Assembly (NCBI RefSeq): GCF_900107455.1
Contig: NZ_FNQB01000001.1
Span: forward strand, 2,728,001 to 2,792,000
DNA length: 64,000 bases
Reading direction: 5' to 3'
From: Asanoa ishikariensis
Lineage (GTDB): Bacteria; Actinomycetota; Actinomycetes; Mycobacteriales; Micromonosporaceae
The notes beneath the pieces were generated by a model that was not told the DNA's origin, did not search any database, and was given only the letters and a program-made list of their open reading frames with translations. Within the stretch, counting starts at the first letter, position 1. Every line of letters starts with the position of its first letter. Positions 19,142-54,217 of the stretch are shown one piece after another. A program made the position numbers and the translations under genes.

Positions 19142-19214
19142 CCATCGGTTAAGGTTCCTTTTGTCCTGATTGCCGGCTAATCAGGGGCGGAACTGGTTGA
19201 AACGGTGCGGCATG

Positions 19215-19243
19215 TTGTCGGACGTCTTCACGTTCCGTATTCT
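19215..19243 (+). promoter_or_regulatory. Promoter candidate upstream of the DksA-like gene
   Basis: TTGTCG (19215-19220) and TATTCT (19238-19243) are separated by 17 bp, a good housekeeping-type arrangement. The GTGGGGGAACGTG ribosome-binding region and the ATG at 19305 lie about 55 bp further on. Confidence 0.45.
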
Positions 19244-19304
19244 TGCCAACCTCCGGAGTGCGCGGCGGCCCGCCGCGCGCCCGTTTTGCACGTGGGGGAA
19301 CGTG

Positions 19305-21074
19305 ATGGCCGACCGCGCGAGCATCGTCCGGAAAGCACCGGCCTCAGCCGGTGCGCCGGGCACGCGCGCCGCCGGGCCGCACCCCGACCGCCGGCCCCGG
19401 CGCACCGAAACGGGTCCCGCCACACCCGGCGCGAGTCCCGTACAGAAGACCGCAACCACGTCAAACCGGTCGACCGTCCCGTCGCGCGCGGCCAAGCGGG
19501 CCGGCGCTGAGGGCACGACCGCCCGGCGGGCCGCCGCGACCGCGCCTGCCCGATCCCGGCCCGCGCGCGAGTCGGCGTCCGCGCCGCTTGCTGCTGCTTC
19601 TACGGGAGCGACGGGTAAGGCTGTCGCCACGGCGCGGATCGAGCCGGCTTCCGGGTCTGCCGATCGGACCAGGTCCGGGCGCAAGACCGTGGTCGCCGCG
19701 CAGGCCGGGTCCGGGCGGAAGGCGGCCAAGGCCGGCGCGGCCAAGAAGGCGAGCCCGGCCAGGGCGACGCCCGCGAAGAAGGCCGCGGCGAAGGCCGGGC
19801 CGGCCCCGGAGGCCAACGGTCGGAAGGCGGCCACGAAGAAGGCAGCCGACACGGCTGCGTCGTCGGCCACCGAGGCCGCTGCTACGAAGGCCACGGCGAA
19901 GAAGACGACCGCTAGTAAGAAGGCGGCCAACGCCGGAGCCGCCGCGAAGAGCGCGACCAAGGCTGCGCCCACGAAGGCTGCCGCGAAGAGCGCGTCCGCG
20001 AAGGCTGCTGCGAAGAGCGCGGCAGCGAAGCGGGCGCCGGCCGACCAGGCCGCGACCGCGGAGTCGGCGACAGCGAAGAAGGCCGCGCCGACCCAACGCG
20101 CGGCCGCGAAGAAGACCGCGACCAGTGAGGCTGCGGAGAAGAAGGCCGCACCGGCCCAGCGGCCGGCGGCGAAGAAGGCTGCGCCGGCGAAGGCCGCCAA
20201 GAAGGCCGCGCCGGCGAAGAAGGCGGCCGCCAAGGCGCCTGCGCGGAAGGCCGGCTCGTCGGCCGCCGCGAACACCCCGCCCGCGGGCGGGGCCGGAAAG
20301 GCCGCGCCGGCCAAGAAGGCGGCCCGGGCCGGTGGTCCCGTGGCCGGGACGGCCGCTACGCGCGCCGACTCGGCTGCCACCGGCACGCGGAAGAGCACCA
20401 GGCGCGCTGGGTCCGATTCCGGACCGGCGGCGTCGGCGTCGGGTCGCGGTGCTGGTGCGGGGCCAGCCGCGCGCTCGAAGGCAGGGTCACGGACCCGCGC
20501 CACCAGGTCGGAGGTGGGCGCCAAGCGCGCGCCAACCGGAGCCGGCACCTCGATTCAGGCCGGGTCTGCCGACCCGGTCTCGTCGCGGAGGAAGCGTTCC
20601 TCCTCCGCGACGACAGCACAAACCGCCGCGGGGGCCGCGGCTGAGGGAGAAGCCATGGTGAAGCCAGCCGACACGAAAACCGCCGCCAGCCGCAAAGCGC
20701 CCAAGGGCACGCGGACCGCCGCGGAGACGGAGAAGATCCGTGTGGCGCTCTCGGCCCGGCGGGAGGAGCTGACCATCGAGCACAGCCAGACGCTGACCGA
20801 GATCACCGTCCTGCAGCGCGACCGGTTCACCGACTCGGCGGGCGACGACCAGGCCGACACCGGCACCAAGACCTTCGAGCGTGAGCAGGAGATCACGATC
20901 GTCAACAGCATCCTCGACCGGATCAGCCAGGTGGAGCGCGCGCTGGAGCGCCTCGACGAGGGCGGGTACGGCTGGTGCGAGCGCTGTGGCAACCCGATCC
21001 CCGTCGAGCGGCTGGCCGCGTTCCCCTCCGCGACCCTCTGCGTCACCTGCAAGCAGTTGGAGGAGCGCCGGTAG
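19305..21074 (+). CDS. DksA/TraR-family zinc-finger protein with long histone-H1-like Lys/Ala tail
   Basis: The C-terminal 125 residues form a DksA/TraR unit: a helical coiled coil starting at about 475 and a C4 zinc finger with CERCGNP (near 558) and CVTCKQ (near 580). DksA proteins act through the RNA polymerase secondary channel. The preceding 450 residues are low-complexity, rich in Ala, Lys, Pro and Thr, with repeated AKKA, AAKKA and PAKKA blocks resembling bacterial histone-H1-like tails that bind DNA. I chose ATG 19305 because GGGGGAA lies just upstream; in-frame sequence back to 19170 looks non-coding. An internal ATG at 20655 also has a good site (GAGGGAGA) and would give a short DksA without the tail, so two products are possible. 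Confidence 0.82.
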
Positions 21075-49116: not shown

Positions 49117-49854
49117 TCAGGCCGTGCGGCGGCGCAGCGTGGTGGCGCCGAGGAGGAGCGCGAGGATGATCGCGCCCACCACGATGCCAAGGTCCCGCCA
49201 CATCGTGCCGGTCGGGTCGGCGTGCGCGCCGACCTCGGTGAGTGCCTCCACCGAATAGGACAGTGGCAGCACGTCGCTGATCACTTGCAACCAGCCGGCC
49301 ATCGAGTCCCGGGCGACGAACAGCCCGCAGAGCAGGATCTGCGGGATCGCCACGACCGGCATGAACTGCACGGCCTGGAACTCGGTGCGGGCGAACGCGC
49401 TGCACAGCAGGCCGAGCGCGACGCCGAGCACGGCGTTGGCCACCGCGATCACGATGACCAGCCAGAGGCTGCCGGCGGTGTCCAGGTCGAACAGCCAGTA
49501 GGCCAGCCCTGCCGCGACCGTCGCCTGCACGGCGGCGACGAGGCCGAACGCGATGCCGTAGCCGAACAGCAGGTCGAGCTTGCCGACCGGCGTGGTGAAG
49601 AGGCGCTCGAGCGTGCCACTCGTGCGTTCGCGCAGCATCGCGATGCTGGTGATCAGGAACATGATGATGAACGGGAAGATGCCGAGCATGACCAGTGCGA
49701 TCCGGTCGAACATCGGACCCTGTCCGTCGAACATGAAATAGAGCAGGGTCAACAGCAGCAGGGGTACGACGATGACGAGCCCGATCGTGCGGCGGTCATG
49801 CCGGAGCTGCCGGACGATCCGGCCGATCGTGCTGGCGAGGATGTGTGGAGACAT
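49117..49854 (-). CDS. ABC-2 type permease (DrrB-like)
   Basis: A 245-residue membrane protein with six predicted transmembrane helices and the ABC-2 signature (RERTSGTLERLFTTPVGKLDLLFGYGIAF near 75). It pairs with the ATPase whose TGA overlaps its ATG (TGATG). Drr-type systems export drugs, lipids or other hydrophobic compounds; the substrate is not known. Confidence 0.88.
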   Translation of the reverse strand: MSPHILASTIGRIVRQLRHDRRTIGLVIVVPLLLLTLLYFMFDGQGPMFDRIALVMLGIFPFIIMFLITSIAMLRERTSGTLERLFTTPVGKLDLLFGYGIAFGLVAAVQATVAAGLAYWLFDLDTAGSLWLVIVIAVANAVLGVALGLLCSAFARTEFQAVQFMPVVAIPQILLCGLFVARDSMAGWLQVISDVLPLSYSVEALTEVGAHADPTGTMWRDLGIVVGAIILALLLGATTLRRRTA

Positions 49855-50576
49855 CACGCGGCCGCCTTCTCCTGTTGACGGATGATGCGCAGGAACGCCT
49901 CGTCGAGGTCGTCGGTGCCGGCCGTCGCCTTGATCGCCGCCGGGGTGTCGTCGCCGATCAGGTGGCCGTCGCGGATCAGCAGCAGCCGGTCGCAGCGGTT
50001 GGCCTCGTCCATCACGTGGCTGGAGACCAGGATCGTCGCGCCGTCGGCGGCCAGGCCGCGGAACCGCGCCCACAGCTCGTCGCGGAGCACCGGGTCCTGG
50101 CCGACGGTGGGCTCGTCGAGGACGAGGACCTCCGGCCGGCCGACGATCGCGCAGGCCAGCGAGGCCCGGCTGCGCTGCCCGCCGGACAGGTTGCCGACGA
50201 GTTGGTGCGCGGCGCCGGAGAGCCCGACGCCGTCGAGAGCGGCCTCCGCGTCAGCGGCCCGAAGTCCGTAGAGCGAGGCGAAGTAGCGGGCGTTCTCCCG
50301 GACCGTGAGGTCGTCGTAGACGCTGGGGGCCTGCGTCAGGTAGCCGATCTTGCGCCGGAGCGGCGGGGAGCCGGCCGGCTCGCCGAGGACGGTGACCCGC
50401 CCCGAGGCGACGAGCTGCACGCCGACCACGGCGCGCATGAGCGTGGTCTTGCCGCTGCCGCTGGGCCCGAGCAACCCGGTGATGCTGCCGCGCGGGATGG
50501 CGCAGCTGAACCCGTGCAGCACCTCGCGCTTTCCGCGGTTGATCACGAGGTCGGTGACCTCGATCGCGGTCTCCAT
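49854..50576 (-). CDS. ABC transporter ATP-binding protein (DrrA-like)
   Basis: A 240-residue ATPase with Walker A GPSGSGKTT (near residue 38), signature LSGGQRSRASLA (near 134), Walker B VLVLDEPTVGQD (near 155) and H-loop SSHVMDEA (near 190), all canonical. It is the first gene of the operon. The start is ATG 50576 with GGAGGAACG just upstream; an in-frame ATG at 50600 lies inside the operator palindrome and is less likely. Confidence 0.9.
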   Translation of the reverse strand: METAIEVTDLVINRGKREVLHGFSCAIPRGSITGLLGPSGSGKTTLMRAVVGVQLVASGRVTVLGEPAGSPPLRRKIGYLTQAPSVYDDLTVRENARYFASLYGLRAADAEAALDGVGLSGAAHQLVGNLSGGQRSRASLACAIVGRPEVLVLDEPTVGQDPVLRDELWARFRGLAADGATILVSSHVMDEANRCDRLLLIRDGHLIGDDTPAAIKATAGTDDLDEAFLRIIRQQEKAAA

Positions 50577-50595
50577 CGTTCCTCCGTCTCTGAAA

Positions 50596-50617
50596 TTCAA
50601 CGCCTGTTGAACTCAAC
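50596..50617. promoter_or_regulatory. Inverted repeat operator for the TetR regulator
   Basis: TTCAAC (50596-50601) and GTTGAA (50606-50611) form a perfect inverted repeat with a 4-bp spacer, and a further half-site CTCAAC follows at 50612-50617. It lies 20 bp upstream of the ATPase start, in the promoter region, as expected for autoregulation by a TetR protein encoded in the same operon. Confidence 0.6.
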
Positions 50618-50648
50618 GGTAGATGAAATAGATGGGTGTACGCAAGCG

Positions 50649-50687
50649 AACGCCCCGGCCCCCCTTCGTTCGGGGGACCGGGGCGTT
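50649..50687 (-). terminator. Hairpin terminator behind the acidic-protein gene
   Basis: AACGCCCCGG (50649-50658) pairs with CCGGGGCGTT (50678-50687), followed inside by five C-G pairs after one C-A mismatch, with loop TTCGTTC. It lies 12 bp past the stop of the minus-strand gene at 50700 and insulates it from the Drr operon. Confidence 0.75.
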
Positions 50688-50699
50688 GTGGTTCTTGCT

Positions 50700-53564
50700 C
50701 TAGAGCGCGAGCACCCGGTCGAGGAAGTCGCGGTAGCGGCGCATCGCCACCCGCATCGCCTCGGTGTCCGGCGCGTCGGAGTCGCGCCGCGGGTCGAGCT
50801 CGACCTGCTCGGCGAGCAGCGTCTCGGCGAGCTGCTGCACCGCGCGGGCCACCAGGGCCTGCGCGTGCCCGAGGGCCTCGGTCGGCTCGTCGACGAACTG
50901 CGCCTTGACCTCGTGCCACTCGGACTTCAACGCGTCGGCCGCGTCGGCACTCCACACCGCGATCCGGGTCTCCGGCACGTCACCCGGACGCAGCGGCGGC
51001 CCGCTGACCGGGCGCACCTCGGCGGCCGGCGACCCGAGGTCGGTCAACGTCGGGGCGGCGACGACCGGCTCCGCGTGCGCGTGCGGGCTCGGCGGGAACT
51101 CCACCGTGTCCCCAGCCTCTTCCGCCGCGTCGGCCGGCTCGTCGCTCTCAGCCAGGTCGTCGACCGGCTGAGGAGCTTCGGCGGTCTCCACCAGACCCTC
51201 GTCGTCGGCGGCGACCTCCTCGGCCGGTGCGTCGACGGCGGCGGTCTCGACGAGTTCCTCGCCCGCGACCTCGTCGGCCTCGGGCTCTTCGTCGGCGTCC
51301 GCGACCGCCTCGGCCGCGGGCTCGTCCGCGTCGTCGCTGTCAGAGGCCGCCTCGGGCTCCGCCTCGACGTCGTCGGCTTCGGCTTCGGGCTCAGCCTCGA
51401 CGTCGGTCGCCGCCTCGGGCTCGCCCTCCGCGTCAGCCTCGGGCTCCGCCGCGGTCTCGGCGACCGCTTCGGGCTCCTCGTCCGCGGTGTCTCCGTCGTC
51501 AGTGGCGGCCTCGGAGTCGCTCTCGACCTCCGCGTCGGCCTCCGCCTCGATGTCGGTGTCGACGTCCGGCGCCGCTTCGTCCTCGGTCGTCTCGACGACG
51601 GCTTCGGGCTCCGCGTCGGCGGTGTCCTCGTCGTCGGTCTCGGTAGCGGCCTCAGGCGCCGCCTCGACCTCGGTCTCCGCGACGGCTTCCGGCTCGTCGT
51701 CCGCGGCCTCGTCGTCGGTCGCGGCCTCTGCCTCGGTCTCGGCAACGGCTTCCGGCTCGCCGTCGGTCGCGACCTCGGAGTCGGCCTCCGCCTCGACGTC
51801 GGTGTCGGTCGCCGCTTCGGCGACGGCCTCAGGCTCGCCGTCCGCAGCGTCCTCGTCGTCGGCGGGTTCGGCCGCTGCCTCGTCCTCGGTCTCAGTGACC
51901 GCTTCGGGCTCGGCGTCAGCGGCAGCCTCGTCCTCGGTCTCGGCGTCCGCGTCGGCCTCGGTGACCGCCTCGGGCTCCGCGTCAGCGGTGTCCTCGTCGT
52001 CGGTCTCAGCCGCGGCCTCAGGCGCCGCTTCAGCCTCGTCCTCGGCGACAGCTTCCGGCTCGGCGTCCGCGTCGGCCTCGTCGTCGGCAGCCTCGGGCGC
52101 TGCTTCAGCTTCGGTCTCGGTGACGGCCTCGGGCTCCGCGTCAGCGGTGTCCTCGTCGTCGGTCTCAGCCGCGGCCTCAGGCGCCGCTTCAGCCTCGTCC
52201 TCGGCGACAGCTTCCGGCTCGGCGTCCGCGTCGGCCTCGTCGTCGGCAGCCTCGGGCGCTGCTTCAGCTTCGGTCTCGGTGACGGCCTCGGGCTCCGCGT
52301 CAGCGGTGTCCTCGTCCGCGGCCTCGGTGGCCGCCTCGGGATCGGTCTCGACCTCACCGTCCGCGCCGGCCTCCGCCTCGTCGTCCGCGACTTCGGTGAC
52401 GGCTTCGGCTTCCGCCGGCGCCCCACCTTCGGCCTCGTCCTCGGTGTCGGTCGCGGTCTCGGTGACGGCTTCGGCTTCCGCCGGCGCCTCGTCCTCGTCG
52501 TCCGTCGCGGTCTCGATGACAGCCTCGGCTTCGGCCGGTGCCTCGTCCTCGGCCTCCACCTCGTCCTCGGCGTCGGCGTCGGTCGCGGTGACTGCCTCGG
52601 CTTCCGCCGGCGCCTCGCCTTCGGCCTCGTCCTCGGTGTCGGTCGCGGTCTCGGTGACGGCCTCGGCTTCCGCCGGTGCCTCGTCCTCGACCTCAGCGTC
52701 GGTGTCCGTGTCGGTCGCGGTGAGTGCTTCGGCTTCGGCCGGTGCCTCGTCCTCGGCCTCCACCTCGTCCTCGGCGTCGGCGTCGGTCGCGGTGACTGCC
52801 TCGGCTTCCGCCGGTGCCTCGCCTTCGGCGTCGTCCTCGGTGTCGGTCGCGGTCTCGGTCTCGGTCTCGGTGAGAGCCTCAGCCTCAGCCTCTGCCGGTG
52901 CCTCGTCCTCGACGGTCGCCGCCTCAGGCTCCGGGTCGGTCACGGTGTCGGTGGTGGCGACCACGTCGGCGTCCACAGTGGCGGCGGCCGGCTCGTCGCC
53001 CTCGGCCGGTGCGTCGGTGGTGGTCGCGGCCTCTTCGGCCAGCAGAGCCTGCCATTCACGCTCGAACTCCGGGTCGGCTGCGGCCGCGGCGGCGGCGGTC
53101 TCTGCCGCTTCCTCCGCGTTCTCGGCGACGACCGGCTCGGCCTCGACCACCTCCGCGGCGGCCGCCTCGGCCTCCGCCACCGCCGAAGCGTCCGCCGCGT
53201 CCAGCGCCGCCTCGGCGTCGCCGGGGGCCACGGCCGGGGTGGTGGTGCTGTCCGATTCGGACTCCGTGGATGCGGGAGCGGTCGCCCACGGGGAGCCGGA
53301 CGTGTCGGGAGCGTTCAGGAACTGGGTCGCGATCGGGGGGAGCGGCTGCGCGGTCGGTTCACCCGGACGGATGACCGGGGTCTCGATCGTGGTCTCGGTC
53401 AGGGCAGCCGACACCGGGCCGGCCGGCTCGGTGGTCTCCGCAGCCTGGGCCGCGGCGAGGGCGTCGAGTGCCGACACCGGGCTGTCGTCGCCGGGTGGGC
53501 GCTGGCCGGGCAGGGAGATAGTGGGCTCGCCCTGGTCGGGCTGGGAGTGGGGCTGGGGCTGCAT
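50700..53564 (-). CDS. Large acidic Glu/Ala/Asp repeat protein with conserved C-terminal helical domain
   Basis: A 954-residue protein. About residues 190-840 consist almost wholly of Ala, Glu, Asp, Thr, Val and Pro in repeats such as [16 protein letters not shown] and [18 protein letters not shown], predicted to be disordered and strongly negative. The N-terminus (1-115) is Pro/Thr-rich. The last 95 residues, with [20 protein letters not shown] and [19 protein letters not shown], form a helical domain that I recall as the C-terminus of uncharacterised Streptomyces proteins with a FVDDP motif. No signal peptide or membrane segment is seen. The ATG has AAGGAAA upstream. The gene is alone between hisI and the Drr operon. 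Confidence 0.82.
51982..52299 (-). repeat. 159-bp coding repeat in two near-perfect tandem copies
   Basis: The unit starting at 51982 recurs at 52141 and begins again at 52300, a period of 159 bp (53 codons). The two full copies encode the same 53 residues. The rest of the acidic region shows shorter, diverged repeats. The exact copies point to a recent duplication or to gene conversion. Confidence 0.85.
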
Positions 53565-53860
53565 GCGGGTGATTTCCTTCCGTCCGCTCCGTCAAGACCC
53601 GGCCGGGCGATGCCAGGATGGGGGGCGCCGGACAGGTGGGGGAGACGGGACGCGACTGCCGGAACGGAACGCGTCGGGCCCGTGTGCCGGTTGGACACGG
53701 GTGGACGCGCGGAAAGGGCAGGGGAGCGCCCCGCCGGTGAGTGGAGAAACCCGGGCGGCGCACGCTCAAACTACCGCGACGTGAGCCGGAGCACAGCCCC
53801 TGATTTCGCTCAGATATCCCCAGGATGTGGTCCTGCCGCCGGTACGGAACAATTGGTCGG

Positions 53861-54217
53861 GTGGCCGTACCAGAATCGGGTCTCGACCCTGCGATCGCTG
53901 CCCGTCTGAAGCGCACCGACGACGGGCTGGTGCCCGCTGTCGTCCGCCGGCACGACGACGGCGAGGTGCTGATGCTCGCCTGGATGAACGACGAGGCGCT
54001 GCATCGCACGCTGACCACCGGCCGGGCCACCTACTGGTCGCGCAGCCGCCACGAGATCTGGGTCAAGGGCGAGACCTCCGGCCACCACCAGTACGTGAAG
54101 TCCGCCGCCCTCGACTGCGACGGCGACACCATCCTGCTGACCGTCGAGCAGATCGGCCCCGCCTGCCACACCGGCACGCCCACCTGCTTCTCCGACGAGC
54201 TGACGGTGGGCGCATGA
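53861..54217 (+). CDS. hisI: Phosphoribosyl-AMP cyclohydrolase HisI
   Basis: Zinc enzyme that opens the adenine ring in the third step of histidine synthesis. The 118-residue sequence has [16 protein letters not shown] near residue 32, [17 protein letters not shown] near 58, and the metal ligands in [21 protein letters not shown] (near 83-102). It lacks a fused HisE domain, so phosphoribosyl-ATP pyrophosphatase is separate. GTG 53861 is the likely start; an AACAAT hexamer lies 7 bp before it. About 300 bp of non-coding DNA separate it from the divergent acidic-protein gene. The stop overlaps trpE. Confidence 0.95.

Follow-up and report, generated by a model that had tools for sequence, protein, structure and literature searches.

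B-his, a gene in the 64,000-nucleotide stretch analysed here (the window) from the soil bacterium Asanoa ishikariensis (genome size 9.09 Mb), is real and vertically inherited, and its product joins a very long and, in this genus, extremely acidic N-terminal arm to a C-terminal helical module of an undescribed family. The same module recurs in a two-gene membrane system of Actinobacteria, the A-B operon, which is itself previously undescribed. By analogy with known architectures, the role of B-his would most likely be that of a scaffold or spacer protein.

The B-his gene and its locus

The features of the locus are as follows (window coordinates).
50700..53564, minus strand: B-his gene, an open reading frame of 954 aa with an ATG start; orthologous reading frames stand at the same locus in ~20 genera
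53572..53581, minus strand: Shine-Dalgarno-like GGAAGGA 5' of the B-his ATG; its position and the start context are conserved
53430..53564, minus strand: N-terminal block, residues 1-45, conserved in an alignment of four Asanoa species
53025..53075, minus strand: short conserved motif within the arm, residues 164-180, near-identical in four Asanoa species, its flanks not
51195..53066, minus strand: acidic low-complexity core, residues 167-790, marked by composition, tandem repeats and selection on acidic residues
51952..52316, minus strand: recent tandem duplication (159-bp unit, 2.3 copies, 99% matches; Tandem Repeats Finder)
50703..50987, minus strand: C-terminal module, residues 860-954 (AlphaFold2 pLDDT 88.5, invariant columns, dN/dS 0.07-0.22)
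50649..50687, minus strand: hairpin resembling a terminator (-43.3 kcal/mol on folding, z -4.7), set between B-his and the ABC operon

An earlier note on this DNA had described a 954-residue reading frame with acidic repeats and a conserved C-terminal module, and the comparison with other genomes bears this out. Asanoa and four other genera have a conserved CGGACGGAGGA-type ribosome-binding site and ATGCAGCCC-like start in common, and sequence comparison revealed an MQP/MHP start in several genera besides Asanoa. Further, a strong hairpin, differing in sequence, lies at the same place after the stop codon in 12 of the 12 orthologues examined, and the dN/dS of the module between Asanoa species indicates purifying selection. 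Because start and ribosome-binding site are conserved, the hairpin is always present and the module is constrained, we conclude that the gene is real. Frameshifts and relaxed selection in relatives, which the note had named, along with absence from proteomes, as refuting its reading, were not seen; none of the orthologues among the matches listed contains an internal stop. All six Asanoa genomes have B-his, and the module was detected in 305 of 355 Micromonosporaceae genomes; its closest named relatives are Asanoa species (98% module identity in A. hainanensis), and B-his is absent from the large genus Micromonospora. A reading frame of 1354 aa on the opposite strand (49845-53909, plus strand) was considered as a gene and rejected, as the minus frame is the syntenic one and is under purifying selection. 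The antisense frame is a by-product of the GAN/GCN codons of B-his, and we note that such an artefact is able to mislead gene callers.

The order TetR-ABC-ABC-[B-his]-hisI-trpE is fixed at loci from about 20 Micromonosporaceae genera, which answers the suggestion that the neighbours of homologues be determined; the two ABC genes code for a permease and an ATPase. In every one of the 57 his-type loci, a class whose definition itself required hisI nearby, hisI is encoded on the opposite strand. We considered B-his as a member of the ABC/TetR operon and rejected this, since the strong hairpin separates them; from its sequence context, B-his is a transcription unit of its own, apart from the ABC operon. 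A scan of the B-his locus against Rfam gave no match. Directly before the ABC ATPase gene, at about 50595-50625 (minus strand), we observed an imperfect palindrome, GTTGAGTTCAACAGGCGTTGAATTTC, which is conserved at the corresponding position of loci L092-L096, L109 and L116; it is likely the operator for the TetR protein whose gene closes the ABC operon.

The N-terminus of B-his has no hydrophobic segment, in agreement with the proposed lack of an export signal. A reading of B-his as a secreted adhesin, prompted by an NCBIfam ClfA/SdrC match, was rejected because the match scored 17 bits against a cut-off of 1150; searching NCBIfam with B-his returned low-complexity noise only, and Pfam-A (E <= 0.1) gave no match of any kind to the whole protein or to its C-terminal 129 residues. 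We conclude that B-his in Asanoa is a soluble polyanion, most likely of the cytoplasm.

The C-terminal module and the A-B operon

The last ~95 residues of B-his are of normal composition and contain FVDEP and a second conserved motif. In the AlphaFold2 monomer model, the module consists of three helices. Alignments and profile matches revealed in B-his the signature of the B branch, FVDxP...(D/S)TE.(L/M)R.A...YR.F(L/F)..(L/I)L, and its sequence and composition the N-terminal disordered arm without a transmembrane segment that also defines this branch. No family in Pfam, NCBIfam or PADLOC covers the B-his module or protein A; the PDB gave only weak chance matches to the module by sequence and nothing significant by fold to the models of the B-his module and protein A (best E about 1 to 4), and literature searches found nothing on the module family. 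We infer that interaction or oligomerisation of the protein goes through its helical module, which would pair either with a second copy of itself or with its relatives in A and B-op.

The host genome contains a second B copy, B-op (L002), directly downstream of a 188-aa gene, A (G000:C2, 1.809 Mb). Protein A, modelled as helical by structure prediction, begins with a transmembrane helix and carries the B module in a longer version; A and B-his share W..Q..FVDxP..A...A..L and (S/D)TE.LR.A...YR.....LL. A profile of the B module built without any A sequence also picks up the A module, at about 24-46 bits. The hydrophobic N-terminal helix of A is followed by RRR, which suggests that its module would be cytoplasmic. 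Gene A was found in 75 of 396 genomes sampled across the phylum, and B-op follows A on the same strand within 1.5 kb at 16 of 30 A loci examined across the phylum. The earlier claim that the FVDEP-containing module is shared with uncharacterised actinobacterial proteins thus holds beyond the family genomes counted above, in an operon found phylum-wide. We note that the A-B operon, which has no Pfam or NCBIfam model, is spread over Actinomycetota (L002 260-1800, L118, L033, L041, L048). Further, by eye, parts of the B-op arm in the host (L002 844-1800) are DTDRDGYDADGDGVDDRTD-like and resemble DxDxDG repeats of the calcium-binding kind.

B-his and B-op are paralogues with the same C-terminal module and a disordered arm (Asp-rich in B-op). 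However, B-op lies beside the membrane gene A and has a shorter, mixed-charge arm of about -0.1 to -0.3 per residue, whereas B-his is unlinked to A and forms its own transcription unit; gene A is absent from B-his loci, so that the direct adjacency to A that defines B-op is not found for B-his. Protein A differs from B-his in its transmembrane helix, a GPEYDR region, an extra RGYP...SVEH...YR.AH insert and the lack of a disordered arm. In a tree of the modules, the 35 his-linked copies all fall into a single clade (100/100), and the Micromonosporaceae B-op copies are closest to it. Because the his clade is nested beside B-op copies, B-his is most simply a B-op duplicate that moved beside hisI. 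A B copy that lies near hisI in a different family of this order (f13; L049, L050) falls outside the his clade on long branches.

The shared module raises the alternative that B-his, like B-op, is a subunit of a membrane complex, joining protein A through the common module and forming an acidic cytoplasmic brush at the membrane. The adjacency of A and B-op across Actinomycetota, with the same module in both, and the topology suggested by the helix and RRR of A speak for it. However, B-his is unlinked to A and sits in its own clade, and gene A was not detected in three B-his carriers (G063, G283 and G459 or its genus-mate G460). Because at least three genera thus have B-his without A, protein A is not an obligatory partner, and we regard this alternative as doubtful, though it deserves to be kept in view.

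The arm: acidity, variation and selection

The earlier note had counted more than 600 residues that are nearly all Ala, Glu, Asp, Thr, Val and Pro; the stretch is residues 167-790 (624 aa), in which A (185), E (167), D (99), T (66), V (40) and P (38) make up 95%, with one R and no K. Over most of its length, this core carries a net charge of some -34 to -36 per 80 residues, and the Asanoa arm as a whole carries -0.355 charge per residue with 8% proline. The repeat units of the arm are wholly different in each Asanoa species: 15-mers in one (L095), 28-mers in another (L094) and a 53-mer in the window. Across Micromonosporaceae orthologues, the arm ranges from about 110 to 1800 residues and, over the orthologous loci, its charge per residue lies between near zero and about -0.5. 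Dactylosporangium arms are even more acidic than those of Asanoa; Actinoplanes and relatives have, at the same locus, long, near-neutral arms rich in Pro, Ala, Gly and Ser. Judged by these compositions, what the family has in common is the module together with a long disordered arm, and not acidity.

The arm evolves faster than the module, and its alignment is unsure; in the alignable parts, we counted G-A changes at codon position 1 over six Asanoa species pairs, which share branches and are therefore not independent, and obtained 20 Ala/Thr, 2 Ile/Val, 1 Asp/Asn and 0 Glu/Lys exchanges. Glu and Asp are more numerous than Ala, yet acidic exchanges are almost nil. In the closest Asanoa pair alone, the count was 12 versus 0, for which the chance at equal rates, estimated from residue counts, is ~4e-5. 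Because acidic exchanges lie far below Ala/Thr exchanges of the same mutation class, we conclude that the negative charge is under selection in Asanoa. This indicates that the extreme acidity of the arm is selected in this genus but lineage-specific. The proposal that B-his is a cytoplasmic polyanion therefore stands for Asanoa, where the charge is selected, but not as a general function: polyanion binding cannot be what the orthologues share, because those of the Actinoplanes type are near-neutral at the same locus.

These results also bear on whether the arm does no more than solubilise, as an entropic tail of no specific function in which GAN/GCN expansions arise by recombination and selection removes aggregation-prone or basic changes. 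The 159-bp units that are 99% alike, the turnover of repeat units between Asanoa species and the variation of composition and length by genus are what such a tail would give. However, acidic residues are protected far beyond what Ala/Thr exchange in the same arm would predict, long arms persist in about 20 genera, and short motifs within the arm are conserved in Asanoa; we therefore consider a mere tail rather unlikely. Residues 164-180 are a candidate helical interaction motif and may be a client-binding site.

The earlier note had further suggested a basic partner, and the window does encode a DksA-family protein (19170-21074, plus strand) with an N-terminal Lys/Ala-rich extension of ~450 residues, 30 kb from B-his. 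We observed that this extension varies from 0 to ~500 residues across the family; the Micromonospora genomes examined lack it. If the arm were a polyanion sink, it would engage basic proteins, the one with the DksA tail among them, in a fuzzy polyelectrolyte complex, buffering or delivering them. The existence of the tail, the selection for acidic residues in Asanoa and the lack of the tail in the B-his-less Micromonospora genomes are in keeping with this, and the charge of the DksA tail correlates with that of the arm at genus level (rho 0.43-0.49, p 0.04-0.08, kinship ignored). However, as a control, the basic C-terminal tail of HU correlates more strongly with B-his acidity over genera and with the opposite sign (rho -0.59 to -0.69, kinship ignored), which indicates that such correlations arise without specificity. 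Further, one Dactylosporangium genome (G254) combines an arm that is among the most acidic with a DksA tail of no more than +9, the opposite is found in Catenuloplanes-type genomes, and the neutral Actinoplanes arms would be unable to act in this way. The modest correlation is thus what stands of the suggested DksA partnership; it is weak and unspecific, and we consider a sink unlikely. In its own right, we note that HU tail length and charge vary among Micromonosporaceae genera (L315-L343), inversely to B-his acidity. That the arm buffers divalent cations or polyamines by binding metal ions is very improbable: its extreme acidity and the DxDxDG-type motifs seen by eye in the B-op arm of the same genome would fit, but B-his itself has no such motifs, orthologues have neutral arms, and the neighbours are amino-acid biosynthesis genes and an ABC exporter-type operon, not metal transport.

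Proposed role and known systems

We tentatively favor a scaffold of the kind of PopZ, in which the module would oligomerise or dock while the arm spaces and repels. On the simplest reading, a B-op duplicate moved beside hisI in an ancestor of Micromonosporaceae and became a separate transcription unit; its three-helix module is kept under purifying selection, and its long disordered arm evolves fast, with the negative charge maintained in Asanoa. The module would pair as proposed above, and the arm would keep molecules apart by repulsion and keep the protein soluble; packing density, and which positively charged clients or cations are attracted, would depend on arm length and charge. The motif at residues 164-180 may bind clients. 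Condensate formation by B-his is plausible on the same analogy. The fuller claim, that B-his is a condensate-forming scaffold of Micromonosporaceae with an undescribed helical module and an arm whose charge was retuned between genera, from acidic in Asanoa and Dactylosporangium to near-neutral in Actinoplanes, we hold to be improbable as it stands.

The module family named here occurs phylum-wide in a two-gene membrane operon (A-B) and family-wide as a copy that stands alone. The one orthologous locus is an evolutionary experiment in which arm length and charge have been varied over the ranges given above, and it warns that function should not be inferred from how acidic the protein is in a single species. 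Should the scaffold reading be true, the effect of the charge and length of a disordered arm could be tested in cells; if condensates are formed, the orthologues would be a natural series for how linker charge sets condensate behavior and client choice.

Eukaryotic prothymosin alpha, a polyanionic protein of chaperone type, has an extreme negative charge and almost no basic residues. B-his resembles it in both respects but differs in that a folded module is attached to its arm and that its acidity is not conserved in the orthologues of other genera. The closest architecture is that of PopZ, the polar condensate scaffold of Caulobacter crescentus, in which a helical C-terminal domain drives condensation and an acidic disordered linker (-0.28 charge per residue, 23-29% proline) tunes it (PMC9512792). 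B-his has an arm about ten times longer than this linker, with 8% proline and no conserved length, and belongs to another phylum; further, linker composition is conserved across PopZ relatives, whereas the B-his arm is near-neutral in Actinoplanes-type genera. Because of these neutral arms and the lengths of about 110 to 1800 residues, a charge and length as tightly tuned as in PopZ are not family-wide. No homology to PopZ was found by sequence (Pfam-A, E <= 0.1) or fold (PDB), and the likeness is thus one of architecture: both proteins combine an acidic disordered linker with a C-terminal helical module, predicted in B-his as three helices (pLDDT 88.5), and both have a short conserved element towards the N-terminus.
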